Positions 26,866 through 62,449 of a DNA stretch of 64,000 bases are shown one piece after another. Position numbers and translations under genes: made by a program. Numbering within the stretch: the stretch's first letter is position 1; every line of letters starts with the position of its first letter. Origin of the DNA: Polytrichum commune (taxonomy: Eukaryota; Streptophyta; Polytrichopsida; Polytrichales; Polytrichaceae). The DNA is taken from positions 71,129,554 through 71,193,553 of the forward strand of contig OX485803.1 of assembly GCA_950295325.1 (NCBI GenBank), written 5' to 3'. The notes under the pieces are model-generated. The model saw nothing but the letters and a program-made list of their open reading frames with translations. It did not search any database and was not told the DNA's origin.

Positions 26866-28500
26866 GTAAGTTGTCCAAAACAAAAAACCTTGAATTTTTT
26901 TTTTGGAATAGTGCTCGGAGATTACAGATCTATTACTTTAAGAAGTTAGAATCTAGGTCTCGGCCCCGAGATAGACTTTCAAAGGGTCACTGGGCGACAC
27001 CTATACATGCCGAGGGAGAAATTTCTGGTGAGGGGGAGGGATGACGGTCGAGGGAGAGGGGGAGGGTTTGGTGGCGTTCTTGGAGATTCGGCCAATGTAT
27101 GAGGTGAGGATAGTTAAGTGTGTTATGAGTGTAACCTGATATGAGGTGAGTTTGCAATGTTGGGTATAAGGGCAATCTGGATTTCTGAGATTCGAGGGCC
27201 GAGTTGAGTGTCTCGGTCCCGAGCCAGATTTTCTGGTATGCAAATCTCGGGATTTTTGGCAGAAGTGCAATATGATCTGAGGTCAATCTGGAATCTTAAG
27301 AATAAGGGTAACATGATGTAAGCTGGTATGTTTCTGCAATTTCAGGGCCGAGATGAGTGTCTCGGTCCTGAGACAGATTCGCTGGTATTCAAACTATACT
27401 GTCACAATCATAGTTGATTTTGATATCTAGATATGCTTTATACAAGTGTTATCTGATATGAGGTCATATATGTGGGTCTCAAGTGTATGATATGAGGATA
27501 TATATGTGGGTGTGAGGTGTAATCTGATATGAGGTTATATATGTGGGTCAGAAGTGTAATCTGGTTTCTGAAATTCCAGGGCCGAGATAAGCTTAGATAG
27601 TCAAATATAAGACCGAGTTGAGTGTCTCGGTCCCGAGCCAGATTTTCTGGTATGCAAATCTCGGGATTTTTGGCAGAAGTGCAATATGATCTGAGGTCAA
27701 TCTGGAATCTTAAGAATAAGGGTAACATGATGTAAGCTGGTATGTTTCTGCAATTTCAGGGCCGAGATGAGTGTCTCGGTCCCGAGACAGATTCGCTAGT
27801 ATTCAAACTATACTGTTACAATCATAGTTGATTTTGATATTTAGATATGCTTTATACGATTGTTATCTGATATAAGGTTATATATGTGGGTCTCTTATGT
27901 AATCTGATATGAGGATATATATGTGGGTGTGAAGTGTAATCTGATATGAGGTTATATATCATGTGGGTCACAAGTGTAATCTGATATAGGTTAAGTTAGG
28001 AATGTTGGGTAGTAGTGTAATCTGATCTAAGCTAAGAAAGTGAAATGTTATACAATCAGAGTTAGGGTAATGTGATATAATGTTAGATATTTCTGAAATT
28101 TCAGGGCCGAGATGAGTGTCTCGGTCCCGAGACGGTTTAGCTGGTATTCAAACTATACTGTCACAATCATAGTTGATTTTGATATCTAGATATGCTTTAT
28201 ACAAGTGTTATCTGATATGAGGTCATTTATGTGAGTCTCAAGTGTAATCTGATATGAGGTTATATATGTGGGTGTGAAGTGTAATCTGATATGAGGTTAT
28301 ATATGTGGGTATGAAGTGTAATATGATATGAGGTTATATATGTGGGTCTCTTGTGTAATCTGATATGAGGTTATATATGTGGGTCTCTTGTGTAATCTGA
28401 TATGAGGTTATATATGTGGGTCACAAGTGTAATCTGATATAGGTTAAGTTAGGAATGTTGGGTAGTAGTGTAATCTGATCTAAGCTAAGTAAATGAAATG
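26866..28500 (+). repeat. Repeat array with GTCTCGGTCCCGAGAC inverted repeat
   Basis: Two interleaved repeats: a unit of about 36 bp (CTGATATGAGGTTATATATG, then TGGGT, variable) in many copies between 27440 and 28440, and a longer unit that starts with a near-perfect inverted repeat GTCTCGGTCCCGAGAC. Copies of the latter lie at 26958-26973, 27210-27225, 27359-27374, 27623-27638, 27773-27788 and 28118-28133. The 7-bp arms are kept in most copies. Lies in the intron-like space after exon 3 of the fragment gene. Confidence 0.85.
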
Positions 28501-28812
28501 TAACACTATATTCGTTAATTGGAGACTTTTTGTTGATTTTGAGACTATTTAAGGACGTGGCTTTCACAATTGTAGGAAGGAAAACAGTACAAAGATGCTA
28601 TGTTCCCAATTTAGGATTCAGATATGAGACTCAAATGCATGGAAATACACAGACGTAAATAAGAAAACGAGATATATGAAAACATTTGCATATACAAAAT
28701 CGATATCATATTTATTGAGTAGGGTTGAAGTACAAAATACATGTGGAATATCCAATATTAAGCCAAAGTCCTAAAAATATAATCCCTCTACTAAATGTAT
28801 GTTAATAATAGC
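28501..28812. other. Shared 3' flank of the small gene family
   Basis: AACACTATATTCGTTAA followed by GAGACTTTTTG and TTTTGAGAC occurs at 28502-28550 and again at 42031-42080, both downstream of a copy of the small reverse-strand gene. No ORF. Confidence 0.5.
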
Positions 28813-29718
28813 CTACATGTTTGGATTGTGAATACAACTCGCTACTTGTATTTTTGCCTTAGCCTTTGCGGCCGTTTCTTTTTCTTTTGCTTTAATGGCA
28901 TCCATTGCTCTAAAGATCTCGGCTCCGCGGCTGTAACCTTGTTTATTGACTGATCCCGAATATGTGCCATTTGCCCATATTTGCTGAACCGCTACCGATT
29001 TGTTGGTTGTAATATTGTGAGTGAAATAAGAATGCGTTTGGGAAACCGAATGTCTTGCACTCTTCCGTAGGGCCAAACAACGATCAGACTCGCAAGAAGC
29101 TGTCTTCAGTGTTCGCCTATCCAATGACGAAGTCGATGATGCCCGGCCCACATTCGTGTACATTGGGGTCTGAACAATGACCATAAATATATATAATGAA
29201 GTGGGTTAGTATAAGTGGTTACAAGTTACGGATGGAAGTCCGAAAAATCCAAGAAGTTGAAATGCACTAATACACGGAAATCATCAAGGAAAAACTTGAG
29301 AATGCCAATAGTTGGGCACCTTCGCCTTTGGGGCGCTGGTTAGAGCTTTTGGGACATCGACGGGTGTAGATACAAGCCCGAGAGGGACGTTCGCGAACGC
29401 CGGGACATCAATTTGGGGTTCATCCATGCAAAGGCGTCTGGTCGACCGTGGGTTACGGACGTGCTTCTCACTGCGGAGGGGAGATGGAGATGGACTTGGA
29501 GCGTAATTGAGTTTTGCAACCTTTGCAGGAGGGCTATCCACGACTCCGTCTTCAAACCCGGAGTCTTTGGAGTAATCAACAGCAGAGGCAGCATCGGCGG
29601 CCGAATATTGGAATAGTGAAGGCATTGCAACGTCGCTCATACCAAGGGAAGGGGAGCCGGTTTCTGCCTGAGATGCAGACATGCCATTGACGACACTTTT
29701 GGGTGCTTGGTGAGGCAA
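28813..29718 (-). CDS. Small low-complexity protein gene, copy A
   Basis: Two coding pieces: 29284-29718 (begins after a splice-like TTGTGTCTTAG) and 28813-29184. The first holds DAASAVDYSKDSGFEDGVVD, then SPPA, then SPSPSPLRSEK and basic residues; the second ends in GYSRGAEIFRAMDAIKAKEK and an A/K-rich tail. Both pieces match a pair at 42573-43425 (DAAS.(V/I)DYSK, VVDSPP, PSPSPL, GYSRGAEIFR), which supports real coding. Conserved blocks in a disordered S/P-rich chain suggest a regulatory or nuclear protein, but no family is recognised. It lies just downstream of the long HAD-domain gene on the same strand, which ends with its own stop at 29811. The exact splice between the pieces is uncertain. 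Confidence 0.5.
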
Positions 29719-29810
29719 CTAAGACACAAAAATACATTACAAAGATAAGGGGAGAAATGTTAGACATTTACATGGAGAGTCCAAGTACAAACCCAAAATC
29801 ATCAAAGTTT

Positions 29811-30578
29811 TCATATTAATTTATTGAGTCTAGCGTAGCCGTACAATCTCCTAAATTCCTCATCTTGTGGGCCTAGAGGCCTATTGCCAATTGGGTTGGA
29901 GAGCACAAAATCCGGGACACTTCCGGGGTGATAGGCAAGCCTCCTAATGTAGGGTCCTAGTTCACTCTCTAGAAAGTTGTCATTTCTATCGCTTTCCCAA
30001 GGATCCGGGAATATGCAATTGCCCGGGGGATTGAGAATACTCTTTGCCGGGCTGTCGTCAATGAGGAGTGTGTTATCCGGGGTGGGCCAACAACCGTGGG
30101 GAACCCCCTCCAACATAGGGACGCCCACCCAGAGGTTCTTCCTCAGGACCTTTAAGAATTGAGGCCCACGACCTCCTCCGACCTTGGGTACAATATTGCC
30201 ACTATGGTCATAGAGGTCATCGCAGTGTTCTTGACCGAAAAGCAAGCATGGCATTGCGAGTTCTCGGAAAAGGAAACCGACGATGGCCTTCGTGTTGTCC
30301 ATGAGCATAGAGCTCCAGATGATGACATGGGCGAAGCCAAGGACCTCACGAAGGAAGCTCCTCAAGCCGGGGCGGGCACGTACAACCTTCTTATTTATGA
30401 GAGTATCGAACTGTCCGCCGTAATCCATGTCTTGTGGACTACGGAAGGGCCCCTTGGACGCACTATGCGAGATATGATTGGAATGACAAAACACCCCATT
30501 GAGGTCAAATATTATGAACGGTTTCATCATGGGCGCGCTTGGTTTTCCCGCGGGGTTGCGACATATCTCCGACAGACC
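29811..30578 (-). CDS. Last exon of the long ParB-HAD gene: FCP1/NIF-like HAD domain
   Basis: Begins after TTCCATCACAG at 30578 in phase with the preceding exon (ends GAAGAG/GTAATC at 30920) and runs to the TGA at 29811. It carries a HAD-type phosphatase fold of the FCP1/NIF family: motif I FDLNGVF (about 30500), ARPGLRSFLREV and the motif II serine in VIIWSSM, and the late acidic motif LLIDDSPAKS (about 30060). FCP1-type enzymes remove phosphate from protein serines, for example the RNA polymerase II tail. Here the second aspartate of the DxD motif I is asparagine, so activity may be changed or lost. About 239 residues, near the usual size of the domain. The fusion to the upstream parts rests on intron phase and is well supported by sequence only. 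Confidence 0.75.
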   Translation of the reverse strand, partial: GLSEICRNPAGKPSAPMMKPFIIFDLNGVFCHSNHISHSASKGPFRSPQDMDYGGQFDTLINKKVVRARPGLRSFLREVLGFAHVIIWSSMLMDNTKAIVGFLFRELAMPCLLFGQEHCDDLYDHSGNIVPKVGGGRGPQFLKVLRKNLWVGVPMLEGVPHGCWPTPDNTLLIDDSPAKSILNPPGNCIFPDPWESDRNDNFLESELGPYIRRLAYHPGSVPDFVLSNPIGNRPLGPQDEEFRRLYGYARLNKLI

Positions 30579-30919
30579 CTGTGATGGAACATTTTATCTA
30601 GGTAAATGGTACTACTCAAGAAAACCAATTGACAAGCATGGATAAACTCAACAAAGAATTATAAGGCCAAAAATAATCCGAACCATCCAGTTGAAAAATT
30701 GGTATTAATGTAATTGGTGATACACATTTGGTGAATAATATACATTGTCGCAAAAAATATCTGTTGAAGTTAATGGAATCTATGCTAACAAAATTGTATC
30801 CACCCGCAGGGCGAAGTCGAGGATTGAACTCGATAATATACACACGCCACGAAGGAGGCAGACAAGGAAGTTTCGGAGGCGCGTCCGTAACGTGGGAGGC
30901 ATGCTCAAAGGTTGATTAC
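30579..30919 (-). other. Intron of the ParB-HAD gene with a decayed palindrome half
   Basis: Intron GTAATC...CACAG, 341 bp. It holds one half-site CGCGTCCGTAA at 30880-30890 of the palindrome that is complete in the other introns of this gene. Confidence 0.6.
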
Positions 30920-32334
30920 CTCTTCAGGGGCGAGGTCCGCTCCAGCAGTGCCTCCCTCACCTGGCCCCGTCATGGGCACAGGATCCGGACGCGCGCCCGC
31001 AAAATTGTCCAGATCTTCGACCACCAACAAGGTGTCTCCAGCCGCTTGCGACCCTTGAGTATCCACGTAAGGCTGATCCTCATCTGTGGAGTCTTGGCTG
31101 CCCCGCATATGTACATCTTCATCGCCGATGGGGGCATTGCCTTCATTGACATCTGTCTCGGCGGCACCCGCCATGTCACGTGCCGGTATCTCCTCCACTC
31201 CTGTAGGATGAGAGGAGGGCTCCTCTGGAGTGGCGACAACAAGGGGAGAGGGCGGGACAATCAACGTGGGAGCTGGATAAGCATGCTCGGGTATATAAAC
31301 TGCATGGCTACTAGATGGAGGCCGCATGAGAGTGGTGGGCATGGACATGCCAGCCTCGGGAGTTGCATATACAACTTGGGGCCTTGCCTGCAAGCTCTGC
31401 ATCAAGCTCATGAATTGTTGGCTCTGGGCCAAGAACTGTTGATTTTGAGCCATGAGATCAGCGTGCCTTCGAGCAGACTCCAACCTAGCTTGCTCCATCT
31501 CAGCTTGGATGGCGGCCATTTTTTTGGCATGCTCCTCGTTAGCTTCTCGAAGCCGTTGGTCAAGCTCTTCCTTCATTCGCCTCTCCATCTTCTCGTCCAA
31601 TTCGGACACTGACATCGGCTCTTTCTTCACCTTGCCAGGTTCCGTAGGCAAGGCAGAGATGGCATGTGAATCCTAATCTCATCCTCGTCTTCATCGGAGA
31701 GCTCCAAGACCGCGCCTTCAGGGTATTCGTTGTATGGCGTCTTGTTCCTCTTTCGTCGACTCTCACGATATAGAGAGATATCAGGCCTCAATATCAACTC
31801 CAGCACATCCCTCCCCTCCATAGGGGGTAGATCTGAATGTTGAGATCCCCCTCCAGATGAAGCGGTGCATCCGCCTTCTGCCGCAAGGTCCACATCCTTC
31901 TCGGCCATAACACTTGGAGCACGAGATGGACCCGCAGTTGAGGGAAATCCAACTCGAGAGGTGGGAGTCCCAAAAGGTGAGAGAACAGGGGTATGAGGGA
32001 CCCTTATCGGAGTGAAGTTCACGCGTGCCTCCTGCGCATCCGTGTCGTCTGTTCCTAGCAGGAAAGCACTTGGATTAATTGGGTCGCGAACAAGGCCGTG
32101 TAAAGGCTCCTGTGTGGAGGGCTGCGCTCTTGGGGAACTGGGATCTTGGTCCTCTTCAGGGTCTGACTCCATTCCGGGCATTGCCTCTTCTCTAGAAGAG
32201 AGAGGCACAATAGGATGGGGTGTAAGGACGTCCATGATGTCTTGGATATCCATTTTGGAGGCCATTACCCTGTGAGTATGGGCGTCATCGTAGTTGGAAT
32301 CCTGCACAAAAGAATTCACCTGCAAGCCAAGCAT
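30920..32334 (-). CDS. Acidic/proline-rich and coiled-coil exon of the ParB-HAD gene
   Basis: Starts at 32334 after GGTCCAG. The first 230 residues are acidic and S/P-rich (ESDPEEDQDPSSPRAQPS) and end in LSDEDEDE. The rest (from 31651) is a strongly helical segment with ELDEKMERRMKEELDQRL to QAEMEQARLESARRHA, a likely coiled coil for self-association, then a P/A-rich acidic part. Between them the reading frame changes near 31630-31680: the 31627-32442 frame stops at 31627, while the 30905-31651 frame goes on. Either a short intron or a one-base frameshift lies there; no good donor was found, so a frameshift is slightly favoured. The exon ends GAAGAG/GTAATC at 30920. Confidence 0.6.
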
Positions 32335-32570
32335 CTGGACCATAACAAGAAAATTAGATAAGAACAATTGTGGTGATTGCATATAAATGAGGCTAGATGT
32401 CAACACATTATACGGACGCACGTTCGTAAAACCACCACTCAAAAGTTGGACAATTTTACGGACGCACGGTCGTAAAATTCACATGCACCTGATACTGGGT
32501 TTTTACGGACGCGCGTCCGTAAAATAACTATGCAAAAGATTGGTGGGTTGAAAGACAAACAAATACTCAC
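32335..32570 (-). other. Intron with three palindromes
   Basis: GTGAGT...GGTCCAG intron. Contains three copies of the ACGGACG...CGTCCGT palindrome, at about 32408-32432, 32454-32477 (one arm changed) and 32499-32524 (complete), within 236 bp. Confidence 0.75.
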
Positions 32571-33882
32571 CAGTGCTGCATACATAAACTTCGTGCCTCC
32601 GAAGACGTTGTAAACTGTCTCACTCATGACAGTTAAAGCCTTCAAGACCCCTATATAAAAGTCCATCCGGAGCTCGAACGCCGGATAGATTGCATGCATT
32701 GTCTCCTCAACAAGCTCCTTGGGATGTGGTGGCGGCAACGAATAGACTTTCTTGAACACCTCGTGTGGTTTAATGGGCAATCGTCCAGTTGGGGAAGACT
32801 TGCGTGTTAAGAAATAAAGCTGCACAGCTCCCACTTGCTTCACCCCCCTTGCCTCTTGAATGACAATGATCCCTTCTGTCTTCGCTGGGATGTAGGTGCT
32901 GTGGTACATATCGTATTCGAGGTCCATCGTTGATGTGTACAGATGGACAATGGATGTGAACCTCTCTTGCTCTACAATCCATAACCACACATGAGGCTCG
33001 AAGAGGGCAGGCGAGCGATAGCTCTTGAATGCTTTTAAAAAGGGGTCGTAGAAGGGTGCTCCCGCAACGTCTTGCTTCCAAGCTCCGGGAATTGCACGAA
33101 AATCAAAAATGGCGAAAGGGCAACCCCTGGGATCATCTCTCACAGAGGCTCTTGAAGCATGGGTGTCCCATGTGCCGAACTTCATGCCCTTTGCGACCGT
33201 GCAGAATCTTGCAAACCCTCCAAATTTCGCGTTCTTTTTCCTATCGAGAAAGTGAACGTACAACCCTGCCTCCCTCTCGTCGATGGATCCCTTCTTTTCG
33301 TTCCTTCTGGATCGTTGGGCAAGGAAGGATGATGCCCCTCTTATCAAAGCTCGCATTGAGACGCCATTGATGTGGTATTCACCCTTCAGCTTCCTCCAAT
33401 TCTCCCACACGATCTCACCATCACTATTAATGAGGTTGTGGGTGGGTAGCAATTTGCTAATCTCCCTTACAGCCATGGTCTTCTTCTTTCTGTAATCGCA
33501 CCATTCCTTAATGTGGTACGTGGATGGCTTCATGTGCTTCGGCCGCTTCAGAAAGATTTTGGGATAGGGCAGAGTTCTTCTAGGAGTTTCTAGAAGAATG
33601 TGTTCTGCTGCCCTGTAGAGCTCCGAGTCCATCAATCCTTGGAGGGGACGAAAGAACTCTCGCAAGATTGGTGGTACCTTAATCTTTGAATCGCTCTTGT
33701 ACGTGTTCTCCGTATCTGGATTCACAAGGTCCCCGTTGTTGTGGGCATCGAAGAGTCGCAACCATATTGCCCACGTCTCCTCTGTTGCAGTGATGAGCTT
33801 GAGTTCACCCTTTAATTCATGCACTGTCTTCATGCCGCTTGTCTTCATGTCTATACTCGAGAACTTTGTCAAGATGACATTG
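32571..33882 (-). CDS. Large middle exon of the ParB-HAD gene
   Basis: Joined in phase to the preceding exon when the acceptor ACATTCAG at 33883 is used; ends GCACTG/GTGAGT at 32571. Encodes about 437 residues without a recognised domain. It is rich in W, R and aromatic residues, with KFGTWDTHASRASVRDDPRG and HVWLWIVEQERFTSIVHLYT segments, and looks globular. In the paralogous methyltransferase gene the region between ParB-like part and the catalytic domain is likewise long and unrecognised. No signal peptide or membrane segment in the true exon; the hydrophobic end of the longer open frame is intron sequence. Confidence 0.65.
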
Positions 33883-34008
33883 CTGAATGTCTGCAAGAGG
33901 CATGAATTGCAAGAAATTAGTAGACATTAAATTCAAAGAATTGAAGCAGTGGGACAAGAAGGGGCAGGTTTACGGACGTGCGTCCGTAAATATATATGAG
34001 TGACATAC
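33883..34008 (-). other. Intron with one palindrome
   Basis: GTATGT...TTCAG intron of 126 bp with one copy of the palindrome at 33968-33990 (core ACGGACGTGCGTCCGT, one central change). Confidence 0.7.
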
Positions 34009-34662
34009 CTGCCATTAGGGTTCTTGACGACTGCATTGTCTCTTTCTTTTGGGGGACATTCGTGCTCCACCCACAAGGTCCTCCCAGCCACGATGTTGGC
34101 TGCCCATGAAGCCTCGAACTGCCTCACTTTATTCCCCTGGTTCATGAAGGCAGATATTGCTATGAGCTGGTTCGAGTCCTTGGAATGCACGACGAATGCC
34201 TTCCAATATCGGATTGTCTCTTTCAATGGGCTTTTTCCACTCGTCGTCTTCAAGGAGAGCTTTTGCAGCCATTACACTATGTTGGCCGTCAACAATGTAG
34301 AACTCTCCATTCTTAAGAATCGGCCAATTTTTTTCGTTGACTTCAACGATAGGATCCTTTGGTGTGACACAAATGGTCTGCCTGTCAAATTTGGGGTTGT
34401 TCATGATGTTGTTCATTTGCCACCATACCCCGCTTTCTTCTTTTGCTCTGGTATTCATACTTTCGGTGCCCTTGTGGCATTTGTAGACGTCTACCTCGAA
34501 AGTAAAATACCTGCCAAGGGGCCAGCATCCCTTCGTCTTCTCATCGAACTCTTGGAATATTTTTGTTGAGAGTTCGGCGTCAGGGCGTTGACCATTTTTG
34601 AGGAGTGGAGCGACAGTCAGTGTAGAGCTGACATACGGACCCTCTGTTAGTCCAGAGTTCAT
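34009..34662 (-). CDS. ParB/DGQHR-like domain exon of the ParB-HAD gene
   Basis: Starts after CTCGCAG at 34662. Contains NGEFYIVDGQHSVMAAKALL (about 34250-34310), the VDGxHRxxAA signature of the ParB/sulfiredoxin-like superfamily (also DGQHR proteins such as DndB); the usual arginine is serine. This family holds nucleotide-binding and DNA-nicking or partition proteins. After DDEWKK the frame must change near 34215, within a run AAAAAGCCC, to reach the clearly related continuation (ETIRYWKAFVVHSKDSNQL) which runs to the donor GGCAG/GTATGT at 34009. A one-base indel, real or an assembly error, is the simplest reading. Confidence 0.65.
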
Positions 34663-34713
34663 CTGCGAGTGAGAGCGTTTATTTGCCTGTCTGCTCCCTC
34701 TTTATGCACCACT

Positions 34714-35298
34714 CTACGAGGGCCTTGAGGATTCCGGCACTGGTTTAGGCACACGCTTGGGCCGTTCAGGAACGACTTGTTTTTTCTTATCTTTCCCCTT
34801 TCTGGCCTCTAGCAAGGCTCCATTTACTCTTGTTACATTGTTCAAGAGTCGTCCAAGCCGCTTACCCGTCCAAGGTGCATTACATGCATAGTCTTGGAAC
34901 TCCGTCTGGAGATTGAAGCAAGCCACATCTGTACTACCATTTTCACATTCATTTTTGTTGAATGGATGGTAAAATTTGTGCAAAATAAATGTTACTCGGT
35001 CTTCTTTCTTCTCAAGGTCTATTACTACATAGTCCCCTTGTGCCACTGCACACTCTACTATCCACGATTTAAGCTTTATCCACTTCTCAGCTTCATCTAT
35101 GTCTGTCTTCATTTGATATGCAAATCTAAGCACATATATTTCTTTCTCGTCCTTTTTTACCAGTACTGTCCAATTATCCACAATTTCATCTTGTGGCTTG
35201 TAATGGTCGTTGGGACTTATGTCTTTGATGGCTTCTGGTAGCGGAGGAATGAGAGCTTCTGCAAACATCTCAATTGCATGTCTCTTTTTAGATGCCAT
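34714..35298 (-). CDS. N-terminal exon of the ParB-HAD gene
   Basis: Begins at ATG 35298 directly after an acceptor (CATTTGCAG/ATG). Encodes MASKKRHAIEMFAEALIPP and about 190 residues: a charged globular part with a HKFYHPFNKNECE stretch and a basic, proline-rich tail (PKRVPKPVPESS) that could be a nuclear signal. The frame stops at 34714, only 50 bases before the next exon; a weak donor CCA/GTGCCG just upstream would keep the frame open. It is thus open whether this exon and the ParB exon form one gene or two adjacent ones. No family recognised. Confidence 0.5.
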   Translation of the reverse strand: MASKKRHAIEMFAEALIPPLPEAIKDISPNDHYKPQDEIVDNWTVLVKKDEKEIYVLRFAYQMKTDIDEAEKWIKLKSWIVECAVAQGDYVVIDLEKKEDRVTFILHKFYHPFNKNECENGSTDVACFNLQTEFQDYACNAPWTGKRLGRLLNNVTRVNGALLEARKGKDKKKQVVPERPKRVPKPVPESSRPS

Positions 35299-36441
35299 CT
35301 GCAAATGATAAGATAGATAAGTTAGAATTCTTGGCAAAAGATATAGATCATACTTTACGAACGCGCGTTCGTAAAGTTTTGCAAATTTTCTCAATTACAT
35401 TTTTTGATCCAAATGAAAAGATACATTTTTCCAAATACACATAACGCGTATATTATATACTCAAATATCTCTATAAGTTACAGACGCGCGTCCGTAAACT
35501 TCGCAAAGATAGTATGGTGTTATATATCTATGTATTCAAGTTACGGTTAATATTACTTCAAGAATGCACGAACGCGCTTCCGTAACCTCTGCACATATAT
35601 TATATATAGTTGATTCATAGGTCTTCCCAGTTTACGGACGCGCGTCCGTAAACTTTGGAAATATTTTAGATGGGAAATGTCTCTTCTATTTGCAAAATCT
35701 ATTGCATTTACGGACGTGCGTCCGTAAACTCTATACATATATTTTTTGAGAGTCTTGTTTCTCACGTACACAAAGATCCACAAAGTTTACGGACGCGCGT
35801 CCGTAAACTTTGAGTATTATAAAGGCTATTTAATAATGCCTAATATTACAATATTTGGCTTCGTTTGCGTAATATGTTGTTTGAGAGTCTTGTTTCTCAC
35901 CTATACAAAGATCCACAAAGTTTACGGACGCGCGTCCGTAAACTTTGAGGATTATAAAGGCTATTTTAATATGCCTAATATTATAATATTTGGCTTCGTT
36001 TGCGTAATATGTTGTTTGAGAGTCTTGTTTCTCACCTACACAAAGATCCACAAAGTTTACGGACGCGCGTCCGTAAACTTTGAGGATTATAAAGGCTATT
36101 GTAATGTTTGCGTATTCTAATGTTTTCATTAATGCTCCGTGTTTTTCGGGACTTTACCTTGTCGTCCAATATGGTTTTGCCCTCCAAATAAGAATGCAAT
36201 CTTACTTCACTGCAATAGCAAACACTGCACTGCAGATTGACAACATAAGGCACTTTCAGAACACTGACATGTCCAAAACTAAATGATTCTTAGAATGTAG
36301 CCATAGACAAAGTACTAAACAAATTCAGAATTCCTTGAAACTGTAATCTCACATGCTCTCATGCTAACCTTAAGCCCTAAACCACAACAATCCAAAATTG
36401 CAATCATACAAAATGCAATTGCAATGTTCTAAAAAACTTAC
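35299..36441 (-). other. 5' intron packed with eight palindromes
   Basis: An intron of 1.14 kb between the small exon 36442-36500 (donor AAAG/GTAAGT) and the ATG exon. It carries eight copies of the ACGGACG...CGTCCGT palindrome: about 35351-35374, 35477-35499, 35573-35597, 35630-35655, 35706-35730, 35781-35812, 35916-35947 and 36051-36082. It is otherwise AT-rich. Confidence 0.7.
35646..36115. repeat. 135-bp tandem repeat carrying a 32-bp perfect palindrome
   Basis: Three units with palindromes at 35781, 35916 and 36051, exactly 135 bases apart. Each palindrome is CAAAGTTTACGGACGC followed by its reverse complement. Units also share TTGAGAGTCTTGTTTCTCAC and TTTGGCTTCGTTTGCG. Confidence 0.9.
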
Positions 36442-36500
36442 CTTTCTAGAGTGTTTACTCCTAAACCACAACTAGCTGCTCCTGGTGCAGCTAATACCAA
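36442..36500 (-). other. Possible small 5' exon of the ParB-HAD gene
   Basis: 59 bases between a good acceptor (TTCATTTGCAG) and a strong donor (AAAG/GTAAGT). Open in one frame but without ATG, so probably leader. Confidence 0.4.
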
Positions 36501-36878
36501 CTGCAAATGAACAATAAAATTGAGGTCAGAAACCTCTAGTAATTCAATGTGCACATGCATGATTCAACATTGAGAACTACTAAAAAAAAGTTGCTCATAA
36601 ATCAGATTCATGCAACACAAGTGAAAGGAAACTATTCATTTGTATGCAAAAAATATAATGAACTACATGGTGAAGCTACAACTGAAACCCTAATGAGCAA
36701 CATCTGAAACACTAATTACCCTTGCAACAACTGAAATCAACCACTGAACACAACCTAATGAGCAGTACCAAACAACAATGAGCATCCTAATGATCTAATG
36801 AGCAACAAGCAAGCAAGTACCAAGCAGAACTTATTAATGAGCTAATAAGCTAATGAGCAGCAAACAAAGAGAACTTAC

Positions 36879-37250
36879 TCTAGCTCTGACGCGCGTCAGC
36901 AATTGACCAGCAAGAATGGGTTTTGAATTGTAAGGAAAGAGAAGCAATATCAGCAAGAGAAGCAAGAGAAGAGAGAGAAGAAAGTGAAGATAAGCAAGAG
37001 AAACAAGAGAGCAAAGAGAAGATAAGAGAGAAGGAAGCAAAAGCAAGAGAAGGAAACAAGAGCCGCAAGAGAAGGAAGCAAAAGCGCGAAGAGGATGGCA
37101 AAAGGGAGCTGGTGCACTTTGAAACCCTATAACCTTAAAGCAAGAGAAGCAAGAGCAAAGTAGAAGGAAAAGAAGCAAGAGAGGATAGAGAAGGAAAGGA
37201 AAGGAAAGACACGAAGAGCGATGGCGAAAGGGAGCTGGAGTACTTGGAAC
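36879..37250 (-). other. CT-rich leader exon of the ParB-HAD gene
   Basis: On the minus strand this is a pyrimidine-rich stretch (CTTCTCTTGCTT-type repeats) that ends with the strong donor AGA/GTAAGT at 36878. A 14-bp palindrome CTGACGCGCGTCAG (36894-36907), related in its core to the intron palindromes, lies 15 bases before the donor. CTTTCGCCATCG-type blocks occur twice (about 37100 and 37220). CT-rich leaders are common in plant genes. The long ORFs here on both strands are low complexity and are not called genes. Confidence 0.45.
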
Positions 37251-37335
37251 CCTAAAACAATGGCGTGCCTCCACGTGTCCCTACCCCAAACGTCACGCCC
37301 AATCGCCGGCCTATACACTTACATGGCATCACCCT
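37251..37335 (-). promoter_or_regulatory. Promoter candidate of the ParB-HAD gene with G-box
   Basis: Directly upstream of the CT-rich leader. Contains CCACGTGTCC (37271-37280), a G-box/ABRE-like site, and CGTCA (37290-37294, TGACG on the minus strand), both known plant bZIP sites. Confidence 0.4.
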
Positions 37336-49232: not shown

Positions 49233-49629
49233 GTATGCTCTGCTTACATTACATTTAGTTTGAATTTATTTAAATTTTATGAGTCCCGTGTATAGTTGGC
49301 TTGAAAGGAAACATTATGGCATGAGAGGAAACTATCCTATGCATTCGAGTAATGATATTTTCGATGCTTTGTCGCATCATTGCAAGTTTGGCACTAGACA
49401 TTGTTAATATATATGCACTAGAAATTAGGGGTAGTAATCGTGAGGTAAACAAGGCAGCAAGTGTGGCCCTGTGGAAGCACTCACAATGCAAAGGGTGGTC
49501 ACAATGACTCGGAAGAGGAAGGGAACAAGACTGACGCAACAGTAACATACCATCGTTCCCCGCATTACAACAAACCTCAGAAATAGGGTATTCCTCCAAA
49601 TACGAGGAGTGAACACAGAGTTCAAGGTT

Positions 49630-52600: not shown

Positions 52601-55600
52601 GAATGTGGGTAACTGAGTAGGGGCTGACTTTGATGTGGCCTTAGTTAGGTTTTGAATGAGGCTGAAAGTGTTGATTTTGTGGCTAAATGAGGAGGTTATT
52701 CACTTTGATGTGGCCTTAGTTAGGTCTTGAATGAGGCTCAAATTGTTGCTTTTGTGGCTAACTGAGTAAGTTATTCACTGAGATATGGCTTTAGTTAGGT
52801 CTTGAATGAGGTCTGAGATGTTGATTTTGTGGCTCACTGAGTAAGGGCTGACTTTGATGTGGCTTAGTTAGGTCTTTAATGAGGCTCAAAGTGTTGATTT
52901 TGTGGCTAATTGAGGAAGGGGGCTGACTGAAATGAGCCATTAGTTCGTACTTAGGGGTTCAAATTTCTGGCCATGTGGTTGAGGGGTGCATGTTTGGGAG
53001 GTCACAGGTTAGGCCTAGAGGGCATTGTCGGATCCGACAAAGCATCCAGGACCTAGTTGAGAACCTCTAAATACTTAGAAATTTGGCTATATGAAATAGT
53101 GGGTTGACTTAGATGTGGCCTTAGTTAGTTATTGAATGAGGTGGGAGATGTTGATTTTGTGATAACTGAGTAAGGGGTTGACTTAGATGTGGCTTAGTTA
53201 GGTCTTTAATGAGGCTCAAAGTGTTCATTTTCATGCTAACTGAGTAAGGGGCAAGACTGAAATGTGGCCTTAGTTAGTTCCTAGGGATTCAGATTTCTGG
53301 CCAAATGGTTGAGGGGTGGTTGTTTGTGAGGTCTCAGGTTAGGCCTTAAGGGCATTGTCAGATCCGACAAGACCAAGTTGAGAACCTCTGAAAACTTGGA
53401 AATTTGGCTTACTGTGGCCTTGAATGAGGTCTGAAAATTTGATTTTGTGGCTAACTCCATAAGTGAATTGACTTAAATGTGGCCTTAGTTAGGTCTTTAT
53501 AATCGAAATTTCTGGCCATATGGTTGAGGGGTGCATGTTTGTGAGGTCTCAGGTAAAGCCTATAGGGCATTGTCGGATCCGACAAAGCATCCAAGACCAA
53601 GTTGAGAACCTCTAAATACTTAGAAATTTAGCTTAGTGTGGCCTTGAATGAGGTCCGAAAAATTGATTCTGTGGCTAACTCCATAAGCGAGTTGACTTAA
53701 ATGTGGGCTTGGTTAGGTACTAAGTATTCAAATTTCTGGCCATATGGTTGAGGGTGCTTGTTTGTGAGGTCTCAGGTATGGCCTAAAGGGCATTGTCGGA
53801 TCCGACAAAGCATCCAAAACCAAATTGAGAACCTCTAAAAAGTTAAAGATTTGGCTATATGAACTAAGGGGTTGACTTAAATGTAGCCTTAGTGTGGCCA
53901 TTAATGAGGTCTGAATGTTGATTTTGTGGCTAACTGAGTAAGGGCTGAGTTTAATGTGGTCTTAGTTAGGTCTTTATAATCCAAATATCTGGCCATATTG
54001 TTGAGGGTTGCATGTTTGTGAGGTCTCAGGTTACGCCTAATGGGCATTGTCGGATCCGACAATGCCTCTAAGACCAAGTTAAGAACCTCTAATGTAGCTT
54101 TAGTATGGCCATTAATGAGGTCTGAAATTGTTGAATTTTTGGCTCACTGAGCATGGGGCTGACTTTGATTTGGCCTTGCTTAGTTCGTAGGGATTCAAAT
54201 TTCTGGCCAACTGGTTGAGGGGTGGTTGTTTGTGAGGTCTCAGGTTAGGCATTAAGGGCATTGTCGGATCCGACAAAGCATCCAAGACCAAGTTGAGAAC
54301 CTCTAAAAACTTGGAAAGTTGGCTTAGTGTGGCCTTGAATGAGGTCTGAAAAATTCATTTTGTGGCTAACTCCACAAGTGAATTGACTTAAATGTGGCCT
54401 TAGTTAGGTCTTTATAATCGAAATTTCTGGCCATATGGTTGAGGGGTGCATGTTTGTGAGGTCTCAGGTAAGGCCTATAGGGCATTGTCGGATCCGACAA
54501 AGCATCCAAGACCAAGTTGAGAACCTCTGAAAACTTGGAAATTTGGCTATATGAACTAGGGGGTTGACTTAAATGTAGCCTTAGTGTGTCAATTACTTAG
54601 GTCTAAAATTTTGATTTTGTGGCTAATTGAGTAAGGGGGCTGACTTTAATGTGGCCTTAGTTAGGTCTTTATAATCCAAATTTCTGGCCATATAGTTGAG
54701 GGGTGGTTGTTTGTGAGGTCTCAGGTTACGCCTAATGGGCATTGTCGGATCCGACAATGCATCCAAGACCAAGTTGAGAACCTCTAAAAACTTGGAAAGT
54801 TGGCTTAGTGTGGCCTTGAATGAGGTCTGAAAAATTCATTTTGTGGCTAACTCCACAAGTGAATTGACTTAAATGTGGCCTTAGTTAGGTCTTTATAATC
54901 GAAATTTCTGGCCATATGGTTGAGGGGTGCATGTTTGTGAGGTCTCAGGTAAGGCCTATAGGGCATTGTCGGATCCGACAAAGCATCCAAGACCAAGTTG
55001 AGAACCTCTGAAAACTTGGAAATTTGGCTATATGAACTAGGGGGTTGACTTAAATGTAGCCTTAGTGTGTCAATTACTTAGGTCTAAAATTTTGATTTTG
55101 TGGCTAATTGAGTAAGGGGGCCGACTTTAATGTGGCCTTAGTTAGGTCTTTATAATCCAAATTTCTGGCCATATAGTTGAGGGGTGGTTGTTTGTGAGGT
55201 CTCAGGTTAGGCCTTAAGGGCATTGTCGGATCCGACAAAGCATCCAAGACCAAGTTGAGAACCTCTGAAAACTTGGAAATTTGGCTATATGAACTAGGGG
55301 GTTGACTTAAATGTAGCCTTAGTGTGTCCATTACTTAGGTCTGAAATGTTGATTTTGTGGTTACCTGATTAAGGGGGCTAACTAAAATGTGGCCTTAGTT
55401 ATGTACTAAGTATTTAAATTTTTGGCCATATGGTTGAGGGGTGCATGTCTGTGCGGTCTGATGTTAGGCCTAAAGGGCATTGTCGGATCCGACAATGCAT
55501 CCAAGACCAAGTTGAGAACCTCTAAAAACTTAGAAAGTTGGCTATATGAACTAGTTGGTTGACTGAAATGTGGCCTTAATGTGGCATTCAATTATGCTCA

Positions 55601-56700
55601 AAATATTGATTTTGTGGCTAACTGAGTAAGGAACTGAGTTTTATGTGACCTTGGTTATGTCTTTCATGAGGCTCAAAGTTTTAATTTTGTGGCTAACTGA
55701 GTAAGGGGCAGCCTGAAATGTGGCAGTAGTTAGTTCTTGGGAATCCAAATTTCTGGCCATATGGTTGAGGGGTGGTTGTTTGTGAGGTCTCAGGTTATGC
55801 CTTAAGGGCATTGTCGGATTCGACAAAGCATCCAAGACCAAGTTGAGAACCTCTAAAAACTTAGAAAGTTGGCTTAGTGTGGCCTTGAATGAGGTCTGAA
55901 TATTTGATTTTGTGGCTAACTCCATAAGTGAATTGACTTTAATGTGGCCTTAGTTAGGTCTTTATAATCCAAATTTCTGGCCATATAGTTGAGGGGTGGT
56001 TGTTTGTGAGGTCTCAGGTTACGCCTAATGGGCATTGTCGGATCCGACAATGCATCCAAGACCAAGTTGAGAACCTCTGAAAACTTGGAAAGTTGGCTAT
56101 ATGAACTAGGGGGTTGACTTAAATGTAGCCTTAGTGTGTCAATTACTTAGGTCTGAAATGTTGATTTTGTGGCTAATTGAGTAAGGGGGCTGACTTTAAT
56201 GTGGCCTTAGTTAGGTCTTTATAATCCAAATTTCTGGCCCTATAGTTGATGGGTGCATTTTTGTGAGGTCTCGGGTTACGCCTAATGGGCATTGTCGGAT
56301 CCGACAAAGCATCCAAGACCAATTTGAGAACCTCTTAAAACTTAGAAATTTGGCTATATGAACTAGGGGGCGTCTGAGATGAGGCATTAGTGTGTCCTAA
56401 GTGAGGCTCAAAATGTTGAGTTCGTGGCTAATTTTATAAGTGGGCTCACTGAAATGTGGGCATAGTTAGGTACTAACTATTCAAATTTCTGGCCATATGG
56501 TGTAGTTGTCCATGTTTGTTTGGTCTTAGGTTAGGCTTTAAAGGCTATGTCAGATCCGACATTGCCTCTAAAACAGCTTTAAGAACTTCTAAAAGCGTAT
56601 AATTCTGGCTATCTGAACTAGGGGGTTGACTGTACTGTGGCGTGAATGAGGTTTGATTTTTTTTAGGGTTTTGGGGGGTTGATTGTAATGTGGCCTTAGT
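49630..56700. repeat. Satellite array with TTGTCGGATCCGACAA palindrome, in intron 1
   Basis: About 7 kb of tandem and higher-order repeats. The common block contains TTCAAATTTCTGGCCATATG, GTTGAGGGGTGCTTGTTTG, GGGCATTGTCGGATCCGACA and AAGTTGAGAACCTCTAAA; the spacers consist of TGTGGCCTTAGTTAGGTCTT and TTGATTTTGTGGCTAACTGA pieces. The 16-bp palindrome recurs about every 210-480 bases (49801, 50131, 50609, 50939, 51269, 51747, 52004, 52218, 52548, 53025, 53570, 53793 and on to about 56290). A few copies are mutated (53352, 55815, 56548). Reverse-strand ORFs of 60-115 codons in it are repeats, not genes. Confidence 0.93.
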
Positions 56701-56750
56701 TGGGTTCATTTGAATGCTCCTCATTTTTTCAATAAATTGGTTGTGCGCAG

Positions 56751-57487
56751 ATCGTTGAGATGGATGCTGATCGTGAGTCTGTGGATGTTGGGGGTCGTAT
56801 TGGCGCTGGGTCATCCCTTAGTGTTGAGGAGCATAGGGAGCAAGGGTCTCCCTTGTCATGTGATCAAAATACTGGGCTTACACCAGGTAGTAGCAAGGCG
56901 CCGACACCCGGGATGCCACTCTGCGGCTCACCTGCAGATTCGGATTTGGGTGTTCGTGCAATGGAATATCGAATTCGCCACAATTTAAAGAAAGATAGCT
57001 TTTTAGTTGTTGAGGGCATGAGAATCCTACCGGTAGAAAAGTCCTCCATGAGAATCCCCCTGTGCAGGTTGATTCACATGCCATTGGTTCGCCCAACCTT
57101 CCGCAGTGACGTTACAAAGCTCATGTCGGCATTTCAATTTGGATACCGAGCTGGGTCAGCCACTTTTTATGTATCTACTACAAATGAGTCCGGAGATAAT
57201 CGATTCATTTCAGCGAAAGATAGGCGTGAATGGGGAGACCTATGGAATGCAGAAAATGATAAGTTTGAGTCTCTTTTGCGCAAAGATAAGGACTTGATGA
57301 GCCTCAGTGGATGTATGTTCTTTGTGTATGATGGTAACCATCGCTTGTTAGCCTGGAAGGAGTGTATTGAAACAGATCACAAGGACGATGCACTCTGGTA
57401 CGAGAAGCATGGTTGCCCAGAATGTGTCATCTTGGACACAACGGGTGGGCGTGGGGACGTCCTTAACGCAATGCACGACATCAATAA
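56751..57487 (+). CDS. ParB-like domain exon of the ParB-methyltransferase gene
   Basis: Acceptor TTGTGCGCAG at 56750, donor AATAA/GTAAAT at 57487 (phase 2). After an unstructured start (DVGGRIGAGSSLSVEEH) comes a globular part with RIRHNLKKDSFLVVEGMRIL, a TFRSDVTKLMSAFQFGYRAG segment that resembles the first ParB box, and FFVYDGNHRLLAWKECIE (about 57318-57370), a good match to the conserved DGxHRxxAA box of the ParB-like superfamily. In bacteria and phages ParB-like domains are often fused to DNA methyltransferases, and the downstream exons here show such a domain. Confidence 0.7.
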
Positions 57488-57567
57488 GTAAATATGATAA
57501 TTTTTCATATCGTTGTTTCCTTCATTTTTTGATTTGCATTTAATGACATTTGTCTCTACCGCAACAG

Positions 57568-57760
57568 GGCTAACCAGACTGCGCACGTTAAGACTAGCCT
57601 CGTACACACTCTACACTGCATTCAAAAATACGGTTCGTATGATCTTAGCTACTACCAGCCCTTATTGACCGAGGAGCAATTCCAAGCGTGCAAGAGCAGA
57701 GGCCCCAAGAGCCCTTGGTACCCGCTGACCCAGGATCTTATGGTGTCCTTCATTTTCAAT
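57568..57760 (+). CDS. Exon of the ParB-methyltransferase gene
   Basis: Acceptor CCGCAACAG, donor CAAT/GTAAGT. The codon split over the intron (AA+G) restores the frame exactly. Encodes TAHVKTSLVHTLHCIQKYGS, YYQPLLTEEQF and SPWYPLTQDLM. No domain recognised. Confidence 0.7.
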
Positions 57761-57843
57761 GTAAGTCACTCCAAATTTCTCAACCCTCTACTTCGCATTC
57801 ATTACTCTTAGTCGTGATCTAACAATTTAGAATATATGTTCAG

Positions 57844-58038
57844 CAAGAGATAGCCGATGCGGTAGATGAGGCTACCCAAATATACAAGGAGGAAGTGTCT
57901 CCAGAGGAGCAGTCGGGGAACGGGTTGGGTGAAGTATTGGACGCTGTGATAAAGAAGACGACTGAGGAACTTGGACACAAGTTCAACAAGCAACAATCAA
58001 TCGCAAACCCGGCCCTTGGAAAAGACTTTCTGGAAGAG
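57844..58038 (+). CDS. Exon of the ParB-methyltransferase gene
   Basis: 65 complete codons between TGTTCAG and GAAGAG/GTTATT, phase 0. Acidic helical stretch (QEIADAVDEATQIYKEEVSP). Confidence 0.65.
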
Positions 58039-58162
58039 GTTATTTCCTTCTCACCAACCTTCGGAATTATACCTTCGGTATTGCTCGCATTCATTTCAGC
58101 ACTTTCTCGTAAATTCATGATTAAATTTACTCCGCCTTCTTTTTTTATGACATTTGTTTCAG

Positions 58163-58384
58163 GTTACTAGGCATTATAGCGCCCACCATTCTAAGAAGAT
58201 TGAGATGACATTGGAGAAATTGCAACTCATTGCCACAGCTGCTGTGGAGCCAGAGTATAAAGTCCGTTGGCTAAAGTGATGGAACAGTGGAAATTTCAAT
58301 CGTGAAGCTATCCGGTTCCCCAAAAGTCCTGCAAGCGAGGACACCTTGAAACCTTGGCTCAATAAAACAACGTTCTGGGCAGGG
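58163..58384 (+). CDS. Exon with in-frame TGA, ParB-methyltransferase gene
   Basis: 74 codons between TGTTTCAG and GCAGGG/GTACGT, phase 0 on both sides. Codon 39 (58277-58279) is TGA, in the context VRWLK*WNSGNFNREA. The reading on both sides is coherent, so this is a nonsense change (CGA or TGG to TGA would explain it) rather than a wrong frame. A full-length protein could come only by readthrough or from another allele. Confidence 0.65.
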
Positions 58385-58468
58385 GTACGTCTATCCTCCT
58401 TATCCTTACTTACCAATCAACTCTTCATTCTATGCCGATTCTTATCTTGGCCTTGAATTTATCCACAG

Positions 58469-58695
58469 CTTGAGGATGCAGTGGTCAAGGAGTTACCTGA
58501 TATACTTCACGCATTGGGTGGGCTTGACGGAGATGTCGAAGTTGATTCATTGCCGGACTACTTGGAGAAGTGGCGGATCTGCCTTTGGGATAAGGCGTTC
58601 ATAGGTCACTTTTCAGGTTCAGATATCTACGGAAAGGGGACGTGGTGGAAGGATGTCAAAGGCTCTGACAACATTGTCAAGCGCTTAATTTTTCG
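58469..58695 (+). CDS. Exon of the ParB-methyltransferase gene
   Basis: Acceptor ATCCACAG, donor TTTTTCG/GTACGT (phase 2), open throughout: LEDAVVKELPDILHALGGL, DYLEKWRICLWDKAFIG and GTWWKDVKGSDNIVK. Helical, W-rich, no domain recognised. The following intron holds 2.4 kb of satellite. Confidence 0.65.
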
Positions 58696-58739
58696 GTACG
58701 TTAGTTGAGACATCATTTGTTCTCCTCATTTATTTAAAA

Positions 58740-61130
58740 CCATTTAATCTATCCCTTTTAGAGCTCGTCGTGAGCTAGTTGGGTACTAAGTATACAAATT
58801 TTTGTCCATATGGTTGAGGGGTGCATGTTTGTGAGGTCTCAGGTTGGGCCTAAAGGGCATTGTCGGATCTGATAAACCATCCGAGACCAACTTCAGAACC
58901 TATAAAAACTTGGAAATTTAGCTATATGAATTAGTGGATTGACTTAAATGTAGCCTTAGTGTGGCCATTAATGAGGTCTGCAATTTTGATTTTGTGGCTA
59001 ACTGAGTAAGGGGCAGCCTCAAATGTGGCAGTAGTTAGTTCTTGGGAATCCAAAATTCTTGCCATATTGTTCAGGGGTGCATGTTTGTGAGGTCTCCGGA
59101 TGGGCCTAAAGGGCATTGTCGGATCCGACAATGCATCCAAGACCAAGTTGAGAACCTCTAAAAAACTTAGAAAGTTGGCTATATTAACTAGTTGGTTGAC
59201 TGAAATGTGGCCTTAATGTGGCATTCAATTATGCTCAAAATATTGATTTTGTGGCTAACTGAGTAAGGAACTGAGTTTTATGTGACCTTGGTTATGTCTT
59301 TCATGAGGCTCAAAGTTTTAATTTTGTGGCTAACTGAGTAAGGGGCAGCCTGAAATGTGGCAGTAGTTAGTTCTTGGGAATCCAAATTTCTGGCCATATT
59401 GTTGAGGGGTGCATGTTTGTGAGTTCTCAGGTTGGGCCTAAAGGGCATTGTCAGATCCGACAAAGCATCCGCGACCAACTTCACAACCTTTAATAACTTC
59501 GAAATTTGTCAATATGAACTAGTGGGTTGACTGAAATGTGGCCTTAATGTGGCCTTCAGTAACGGTCTAATTGTTGATTTTGTGGCTAACTGTGTAAGGG
59601 GCTGACTGAAATGTTGCCTTAGTTAGTTCTTGAATTAGGCTCACAGTGTTGTTTTCTGGCTATCTGAGTTAGGGGCTGACTTTGATGTGGCCTTGGTTAG
59701 GTCTTTAATGATGCTCAAAGTTTTGATTTTGTGGCTAACTGAGTAAGGGGCAGCCTGAAATGTGGCCTTAGTTAGGTTTTGAATGAGGCTGAAATTGTTG
59801 ATTTTGTGGCTAAATGAGGAGGTTATTCACTGAGATGTGGCCTTAGTTAGGTCTTGAATGAGGCTCAAATTGTTGCTTTTGTGGCTAACTGAGTAAGTTA
59901 TTCACTGAGATATGGCTTTAGTTAGGTCTTGAATGAGGTCTGAGATGTTGATTTTGTGGCTCACTGAGTAAGGGCTGACTTTGATGTGGCTTAGTTAGGT
60001 CTTTAATGAGGCTCAAAGTGTTGATTTTGTGGCTAATTGAGTAAGGGGGTTGACTTTAATGTGGCCTTAGTTAGGTCTTTATAATCCAAATTTCTGGCCA
60101 TATGGTTGAGGGGTGGATGTTTGTGAGGTCTCAGGTTAGGCCTAAAGGGCATTGTCGGATCCGACAAAGCATCCAAGACCAAGTTGAGAACCTCTAAAAA
60201 CTTAGAAAGTTGGCTTAGTGTGGCCTTGAATGAGGTCTGAAAATTTGATTTTGTGGCTAACTCCATAAGTGAGTTGACTTATATGTGGGCTAAGTTAGGT
60301 CCTAAGTATTCAAATTTCTGGCCACATGGTTGAGGGGTGCATGTTTGTGAGGTCTCAGGTAAGGCCTAAAGGGCATTGTCGGATCCGATACAGCATCCGA
60401 GACCAACTTCAGAACCTTTAGAAACTTAGAAATTTGGCTATATTAACTAGTGGGTTGACTGAAATGTGGCCTTATTTGGTTCTTGAATTAGGCTCACAAT
60501 GTTGATTTTGTGGCTATCTGTGTTAGTGGTTGTCTGAAATGTGGCCTTAGTTAGGCCTTCAATTATGCTCCAAGTGTTGATTCTGTGGCTAACTAAGTAA
60601 GGTGCTGACTTTAATGTTGCTTTAGTTAGTTCTTGAATTAGGCTCACAGTGTTGATTTTGTGGCTATCTGAATAAGGGGCTGACTGAAATGTGGCCTTAG
60701 TTAGGTCTTCTATGAGGCTCAAAGTTTTGATTTTGTGTCTACCTGAGTAAGGGGCAGACTGAAATGAGGCATTAATTAGTTCTTAGGGATTCAAATTTCT
60801 GGCCATATGGTTGAGGGGTGCATGTTTGTGAGGTCTCAGGTTGGGCCTACAGGGCATTGTAAGATCCGATAAACCATCTGAGACCAACTTCAGAACCTAT
60901 AAAAACTTAGAAATTTGGCTATATTAACTAGTGTGTTGACTGAAATGCGGCCTTCATGTGGCCTTTAGGTAGGGTCAAATTGTTGATTTTGTGGCTTACT
61001 GAGTAACGGGGCAGAATGAAATGTGGCTTACTTAAGTACTAAGTATTTAAATTTCTGGCCATATCATTTAGAGGTCCTAGTTTGCGAGGTCTGAGTGAGG
61101 TGTGAGGAAGTCTCAATCGCTTAATCTTTC
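58740..61130. repeat. Satellite array in a second intron of the same gene
   Basis: Same family as 49630-56700, more diverged; palindrome copies at about 58858 (mutated), 59116, 59448 (one change), 60150, 60378 (one arm changed) and 60857 (mutated). Confidence 0.9.
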
Positions 61131-62436: not shown

Positions 62437-62449
62437 GTATGTCCTAATT

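Follow-up and report, generated by a model that had tools for sequence, protein, structure and literature searches.

In the maize Spm element, the accessory protein TnpA binds repeated subterminal motifs. Bacterial ParB proteins carry the motif DG(N/Q)H..A, and their parS sites are 16-bp palindromes present in several copies near the gene. TnpA of Spm, a CACTA transposon, is described as activating its element, correlated with DNA demethylation (PMC10398659). For VANC, target motifs are described that form tandem repeats within introns of VANC21 and VANB21 and in front of VANA21, and that change between families (PMC5735166, PMC10398659). Retrotransposons carrying DNA methyltransferases (DNMT) are reported from charophytes and dinoflagellates (PMC5890265). 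Here we describe a stretch of 64,000 nucleotides of Polytrichum commune (contig OX485803.1, positions 71,129,554 to 71,193,553; contig C1 in our numbering), referred to as the window, which holds three arrays of CpG-containing palindromes. An accessory gene divergent from a putative transposase gene is carried by large DNA transposons, which belong to two or more kinds. Each clade of these accessory genes is associated with arrays of a private palindrome of 16-22 bp, located upstream of genes and in inferred introns. As the best explanation we propose self-recognition and sequence-specific anti-silencing, a self-activation like that by VANC or Spm TnpA that would be built from a different protein. 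We assign it a probability of about one half (0.52).

The palindromes are termed type A (TTGTCGGATCCGACAA), type B (ACGGACGCGCGTCCGT) and type C (GTCTCGGTCCCGAGAC). Type C was found at 6 places between 26957 and 28133 (12 matches on both strands versus 0.17 expected), type B at 20 places with up to 3 mismatches between 32412 and 41791 (0.04 expected) and type A at 30 places under the same threshold between 49801 and 60872 (0.19 expected). Two additional weak type B places are at 30873 and 30985. The three arrays are real and well above chance expectation. Their positions and the copy numbers of six, about 20 and about 30 had already been given by the initial annotation of this DNA, and only the start of the type C array shifts, by one position. 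That annotation overlooked that the genes are transposon genes; all three arrays are parts of transposons. It also placed each array in or next to introns of a large ParB-like gene or its fragment. Of the 20 type B copies, 16 are located in front of two genes in divergent orientation and 4 within inferred introns, and the type C array goes with a fragment from the 5' part of a gene. The genes had been described as related; the type B gene resembles the A and C genes by motif only. Introns, promoters and start codons were here derived from reading frames, with starts placed by hand.

In the genome (407.8 Mb, 64 contigs), 180 exact copies of the type A and 1097 of the type B palindrome were found, with 0 and 0 for the reversed-pattern controls. 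The type C palindrome with up to 1 mismatch occurred 973 times in forward and 868 times in reverse orientation (control 2 and 13). Genome statistics rest on listed places and fetched stretches. The palindrome places listed are the first ones, on contigs C1 and C2, and the exon lists comprise 150 matches each, scored out of 1112 candidates for the type A ParB-like exon and 957 for the type B exon. The C group contains all exons 40-45% identical to the A query and takes in subclades with other palindromes. Among the matches listed, 36 of 50 type A places were within 10 kb of a type A exon and 0 of 50 within this distance of a B or C exon, while 80 of 100 type C places were close to a C-group exon. 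For type B this applied to 49 of 50 listed places, so that freely mobile palindromes, and likewise satellites unlinked to the genes, were rejected. Counted by cluster, again among the matches listed, an own-group exon accompanied 4 of 7 (A), 6 of 7 (B) and 8 of 14 (C). For the 56% clade, whose list is complete, 58 of 64 palindrome places were within 10 kb of a clade exon.

A third B-type gene just downstream of the window, 24-38% identical to the window B exons, is accompanied by eight copies of TGGGTCGnnCGACCCA. The genome contains 10,055 copies of this word (control 1), many of which, in the part listed, are spaced 32-79 bp apart. The search for the associated gene gave 84 scored matches of 2185 candidates, and 44 of 100 places of the word were within 10 kb of a scored gene, among the matches listed. 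Linkage alone proves little, because arrays inside one element are co-inherited.

The divergence of the palindromes between gene clades was analyzed in 5 kb fetched around each of 20 exons chosen across the tree, in which palindromes were sought without template and then by core pattern. The template-free search revealed a repeated palindrome in 16 of the 20 regions, and the core pattern added L020, L021 and L024. The words were TTGTCGGATCCGACAG/CTGTCGGATCCGACAG for type A (80-88%), TGGTCGGGTCCGACCA for the 56% and 51% clades, and CTCTCGGCTCCGAGAG, GTTTCGGGACCGAAAC, CTCGGAACCGAG, TCTCGGCCCCGA and the type C palindrome around further exons. B genes had the type B palindrome (B 81% and 60%) or ACGAACGnnCGTTCGT (B 48%). 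Within each protein superfamily the core is constant (TCGGnnCCGA and ACGRACGnnCGTYCGT, respectively), with summed core counts of 86 and 48, whereas 60 resamples gave 0.3 and 0.0. Among the regions counted, genes of one superfamily were never accompanied by the core of the other, and neither core occurred at window positions 1-23000 or in the regions L038-L040. The symmetry count comprised 15 arrays picked by core only, including the close copies A0 and L002 and leaving out L019. Outer arm pairs next to the core were complementary in 375 of 426 cases, with bases that differ between clades. With palindromes masked, spacers were alignable in 3 of 45 pairs of 10 arrays, though all share the core. 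The initial observation of one palindrome per locus therefore holds in the form that gene clades have their own palindromes, both arms of which diverge symmetrically. Because a change of the outer bases affects both arms jointly, with the core preserved and the spacers unalignable, we infer dimeric recognition.

The window copies were also compared column by column. Mean column identity of type B is 0.93 in the core, 0.65 in the next 10 bp and 0.48 farther out; the corresponding values are 0.95, 0.82 and 0.66 for type C, and 0.97, 0.90 and 0.89 for type A. The claim that the palindromes are better kept than their surroundings thus applies strongly to B, moderately to C and only weakly to A, whose flanks are part of the same tandem repeat. 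In 15 of the 20 type B copies the flanks are less than 60% identical to one another and the palindrome is kept, mostly with TTT/AAA flanks; some of these copies have matched double changes in both arms, such as ACGAACGCGCGTTCGT. That arms mutate as fast as spacers is clearly refuted for B and, across clades, for A and C, but hardly for the A array alone. Functionless satellite turnover inside the transposons, with the linkage as hitchhiking, would be in line with the type A arrays, which are tandem repeats with almost equally conserved flanks. Neither symmetric arm changes with unalignable spacers nor 15 type B copies in dissimilar flanks would be expected from it, and we regard it as very unlikely.

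The strand of the imperfect type C palindromes was that of the gene in all 8 listed clusters with an exon, and in the 56% clade both strands agreed at 6 of 6 loci. Hairpins in introns or leaders that steer splicing or small-RNA production would explain such an agreement in type C. It is, however, a consequence of element structure, arrays also lie between divergent genes, and the symmetry of the A and B palindromes reaches the centre and leaves no loop. A role at the RNA level is hence the explanation to which we give least credit.

Spacers in many A and C arrays are depleted of CpG, with observed/expected ratios (o/e) of 0.04-0.31 in 14 of 18 stretches counted, palindromes being counted only when the core was intact. 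In several of these arrays CpG is nearly restricted to the palindromes, with spacer values of 0.04-0.11 in the C1 copy, A0 and A2; exons have 0.72-0.76. Located by their flanks alone, palindromes had intact CpGs in 55 of 64, 65 of 70, 59 of 70 and 35 of 44 cases in four copies. Either methylation protection at bound sites or selection for the word alone would give this pattern.

In the mechanism proposed here, the accessory protein would bind the palindrome of its own family as a homodimer, binding would keep the non-coding DNA of the element open, i.e. unmethylated and transcribed, and the private palindrome would limit the effect to copies of the same family. We infer both that the co-divergence reflects binding and that binding leads to a loss of silencing. 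The palindrome layout is the one described for VANC targets, and anti-silencing with self-activation is taken as the likeliest function. An autorepressor or copy-number control, in which the protein represses its own and the transposase promoters via the palindromes, would agree with the type B arrays upstream of both inferred start codons. Dozens of intronic copies exceed the need of a repressor, however, and the families are numerous and partly recent, with copies 96-98% identical, so that we consider such a control improbable. The palindromes might also be transposition sites at which accessory protein and transposase assemble to cut the element. Such a role would match a gene divergent from the putative transposase gene and has a precedent in TnpA on its subterminal motifs, but the arrays are internal. 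Type A palindromes fill inferred introns about 6.4 kb from the left and about 4.5 kb from the right end of the element, and in a full type B copy the nearest strict-pattern palindromes are 4.35 kb and 2.3 kb from the left and right end, respectively. Transposition sites are therefore quite improbable.

Several observations weigh against self-recognition with anti-silencing. Co-inheritance would explain the linkage by itself, leaving only symmetry and spacer turnover as arguments for recognition. A scored exon of the own group was absent within 10 kb for 14 of 50 A, 1 of 50 B and 20 of 100 C listed places, and an exon of another type lay within this distance for 1 B place (C exon) and 5 C places (B exon). 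One of the 20 loci (L023) was without array, just two copies each were found at L014, L015 and L020, and the symmetry of L024 (26 of 51) and L021 (16 of 24) is weak. In the A array the repeat unit is conserved almost as well as the palindrome that it contains. Spacer CpG depletion is weak in the 56% clade (o/e 0.41-0.48), in L020 (0.70) and in the window C fragment (0.54), and the window B arrays are without it (0.62-0.72). Finally, a VANC-related family was absent from the Pfam scans, and no direct comparison with a VANC sequence was made.

The type A protein may derive from a part with the ParB-like motif and an N6/N4 DNA methyltransferase with altered catalytic motif. Joined across the last inferred intron, the type A gene matched PF01555 with an E-value of 1.6e-7 (31.9 bits, over the cut-off of 26.7). 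With the CcrM model the E-value was 5.9e-8, yet the score of 32 bits falls far short of the cut-off of that model (830). The 56% clade remained below the PF01555 cut-off (1.4e-4, 22.3 bits). The first two methyltransferase-like frames of type A (61183-61950 and 61917-~62437) overlap in different reading frames. A motif of the S-adenosylmethionine (SAM) type, DVNAGVGT, is kept and is formed across an inferred intron. The catalytic motif of N6/N4 DNA methyltransferases is (D/N/S)PP(Y/F/W); in place of DPPY, type A has DIPE (ADIPE) and the 56% clade DLPE. Open frames of 577 amino acids (aa) related to this part of type A were found at L038:2727-4457 and on the reverse strand of L039 at 2489-4219. 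The one with DIPY keeps a full-length N6_N4_Mtase match, and its paralogue with DIPD matched at 164-216 only; no repeated 16-bp palindrome was noticed around them in the 8 kb fetched. In the same family, PF01555 matches without stops near the starts of contigs C10 and C12 are possibly bacterial DNA in the assembly.

Such a protein could methylate its own palindromes (N6-methyladenine or N4-methylcytosine) and thereby label or protect its family, like a solitary modification enzyme. The PF01555 match with its SAM-type motif, weaker in the 56% clade, and the full-length domain match retained by the distant DIPY relative argue for this self-marking, whereas DPPY is altered in type A, in the 56% clade and in the relatives alike, and B genes lack a significant methyltransferase match. 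Self-marking thus appears unlikely, and the former methyltransferase would probably serve the type A protein as a scaffold for recognition and no longer as a catalyst. The genes had initially been called methyltransferase-like as well as ParB-like. The first name fits type A once its exons are joined, but for type B no significant match was obtained to any family searched, methyltransferases included, or to the type A profile. Since profile comparison of the A and B methyltransferase profiles gave E-values of 0.23-0.63, a common origin of the A and B genes is not claimed; the type B gene has the same motif order as A, with IVDGQHS and later NVFGGTK.

The name ParB-like refers to the motif DG(N/Q)H..A, which is present, and to its position only; significance was reached in no library searched. 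A exons had no ParB match in Pfam, and the best hit of the libraries was phrog_1033 (E 0.19). In a profile comparison of the type A ParB-like alignment (A1) with the first exons of type B (A3), the DG(N/Q)H motifs pair at an E-value of 0.033 and a probability of 1.6%. Profile searches of the PDB with alignments A1, A2 and A3 gave nothing below E 0.36, and none of 35 pattern stretches from a viral-contig search with A1 was confirmed. Single-sequence fold models of two window proteins were unusable (mean predicted local distance difference test scores of 35.5 and 33.3).

The features of the window are compiled in Table 1. Types A and C sit in elements resembling Mutator-like elements (MULE), whose hallmarks are long terminal inverted repeats (TIR), target duplications of 8-11 bp and a MULE transposase, and their accessory gene is divergent from the putative transposase gene. 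The TIR of the type A element (GGGGA..GTATGCGAGCG..GAGAGC) extends over about 58 bp at 79% identity, and a candidate 9-bp target duplication, GGGGGGAGG, lies in G-rich DNA. The inverted ends were found in the window, in L001 and at the right end of the 56% clade. No MULE transposase domain was matched in the element pieces scanned against Pfam. The SWIM match of the partner gene (E 0.0034, 17.3 bits) is under its cut-off of 19.6; main protein segments are 92-98% identical in copies C0 and A2 and 41-67% in B1. The element copy on C4 matches 43440-64391 in pieces that are 97-99.6% identical and are interrupted by insertions and array-length differences, and the match of the C3 copy is less complete. 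Among the matches listed, dispersed type A exon copies on C3, C4 and C6 are 96-98% identical. The C4 copy (L004:2696 and L010) carries one insertion with CACTACAAAAAA ends and two others that are about 975 bp long and have overlaps of 5-6 bp. The type C piece, a 5' end, breaks off at about 28.5 kb, and a B element starts there. Its frame region shares 77% DNA identity over 809 bp with the type C copy at C1:10.93 Mb, and its partner gene shares 95% over 2470 bp with that of element A.

Type B is an element of another kind. CACTA elements are marked by CACTA termini, a 3-bp target duplication and a CACTA transposase. The 3' terminus of type B, AACACTATATTCG, is located at 28502, and position 42034 has another terminus of this kind. 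In a full copy at about C1:27947644-27964956 (17.3 kb), AACACTATATTCG ends, a likely 4-bp duplication (CACT) and the divergent gene are present. The first divergent frame of this copy is without Pfam match; a closely similar gene beside it (L033) matches DUF7869 (1.5e-18), and the divergent gene of this type may be the transposase. No use of DUF7869 turned up in the papers that a literature search listed. Strict-pattern palindromes of the full copy lie about 0.6-1.2 kb upstream of the inferred start of the divergent gene, 0.2-0.8 kb upstream of that of the accessory gene, and farther inside. The type B element also contains an NLI/FCP1-like phosphatase frame (PF03031, 5e-13) at 29811-30593 on the minus strand, which is present in the full copy too. 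Elsewhere in the window, an unrelated tandem repeat of AAACCCAGCTCCTTCAT-like units covers 21150-21465. In the genome, the chlorophyll a/b-binding family had 58 matches, in keeping with a photosynthetic host; fourteen of them, with equal scores, lie within 95 kb (C5:1751760-1846160).

Table 1. Features of the three palindrome-bearing elements in the window
Feature	Position	Strand	Basis or remark
Divergent partner gene of type C fragment, 811 aa open	23348..25780	-	DNA identity to element A partner
Type C gene first-exon frame, remainder not in place	26112..26468	+	Similarity to C1:10.93 Mb copy
Type C palindrome array, six places	26957..28133	+	
Type B element, 5'-truncated	28502..42033	-	93-95% identical to full 17.3-kb copy
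Three type B palindrome places in inferred intron after NVFGGTK	32412..32520	.	
Type B exon with NVFGGTK motif	32442..33926	-	Alignment A2; without significant family match
Type B palindrome in inferred intron of B gene	33972..33987	.	
Type B gene, first exons (MASKKRHA...; FYIVDGQHSVMAAK)	34129..35394	-	Genome matches, alignment A3
135-bp array plus adjacent palindromes, 8 type B places just before inferred B gene start	35357..36074	.	
95-bp array plus adjacent palindromes, 8 type B places upstream of divergent gene start	40700..41791	.	
Divergent gene start of B element, putative transposase, cut by terminus at 42034	41861..42035	+	
Type A element, MULE-like, ~21.9 kb	43441..64000, runs ~1374 bp past window	+	Second copy and inverted ends
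Putative transposase gene of element A, divergent partner with SWIM-like zinc finger	44684..48644	-	SWIM match and copies
Open frame with type A gene first exon (MNTRSRARAD...)	48942..49295	+	52% identical to type C exon in C1
Type A palindrome array 1, 24 places (up to 3 mismatches)	49801..56562	.	Hardly any CpG outside palindromes
Type A ParB-like exon (VYDGNHRLLAWKE)	56736..57488	+	Genome matches, alignment A1
Further type A exons (~57566-57763, 57823-57960, 58151-58276, 58457-58705)	57566..58705	+	
Type A palindrome array 2, 6 places	58860..60872	.	
Type A methyltransferase-like frames (61183-61950, 61917-~62437, ~63110-63334)	61183..63334	+	PF01555

How transposons escape silencing without a global demethylation that damages the host is an open question with few worked cases, including VANC. 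If true, self-recognition in Polytrichum would be a second case of anti-silencing, in which the protein differs, the targets have dyad symmetry and one genome offers eight or more gene-palindrome pairs that diverged in nature. The evolution of self-specificity would become directly testable, as the half-site code could be read and swapped pair by pair, and the proteins would be a source of new palindrome-specific DNA-binding proteins. We know of no earlier case of such an accessory protein, of this dyad symmetry, of an occurrence in two transposon kinds or of this scale; literature searches for such elements found nothing on them, which is no proof that none is in print. It is conceivable, if rather doubtful, that they form an undescribed class of transposon self-recognition, with proteins derived, at least in type A, from prokaryote-type ParB/N6-methyltransferase parts, two transposon kinds, private CpG palindromes, families made mutually blind as protein and palindrome diverged, and a single word, TGGGTCGnnCGACCCA, in such a high copy number.

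With bacterial ParB/parS the locus has in common the DG(N/Q)H..A motif and 16-bp palindromes near the gene, but there is no significant domain match, and no ParA partner was noticed among the frames seen, no search having been aimed at it. The C-terminal part of the type A protein and its SAM-type motif resemble N6/N4 DNA methyltransferases (PF01555, CcrM), from which the altered catalytic motif sets it apart. In contrast to the subterminal motifs of Spm TnpA, the arrays are internal, and the two are likened by description, not by protein sequence. A captured DNA methyltransferase is also described for the DNMT elements, but these are retrotransposons with C5 methyltransferases (PMC5890265). 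The Polytrichum genome itself has 123 scored matches of 353 candidates to the C5 cytosine methyltransferase family PF00145. One of them (L040, reverse strand, 1-1986 and 2961-3923) lies inside a gypsy-type retrotransposon with reverse transcriptase, which resembles the charophyte elements as described (PMC5890265). The system proposed here would work like VANC, membership of VANC itself not being claimed. It differs from VANC in the form of the motif, a CpG palindrome, in the ParB/methyltransferase-like protein of type A and in its occurrence in a second kind of transposon. As described for VANC of Arabidopsis VANDAL21 and VANDAL6, a transposon accessory protein is associated with short family-specific motifs, tandemly repeated within introns and ahead of the transposase gene, and the motif changes along with the protein family (PMC5735166, PMC10398659).

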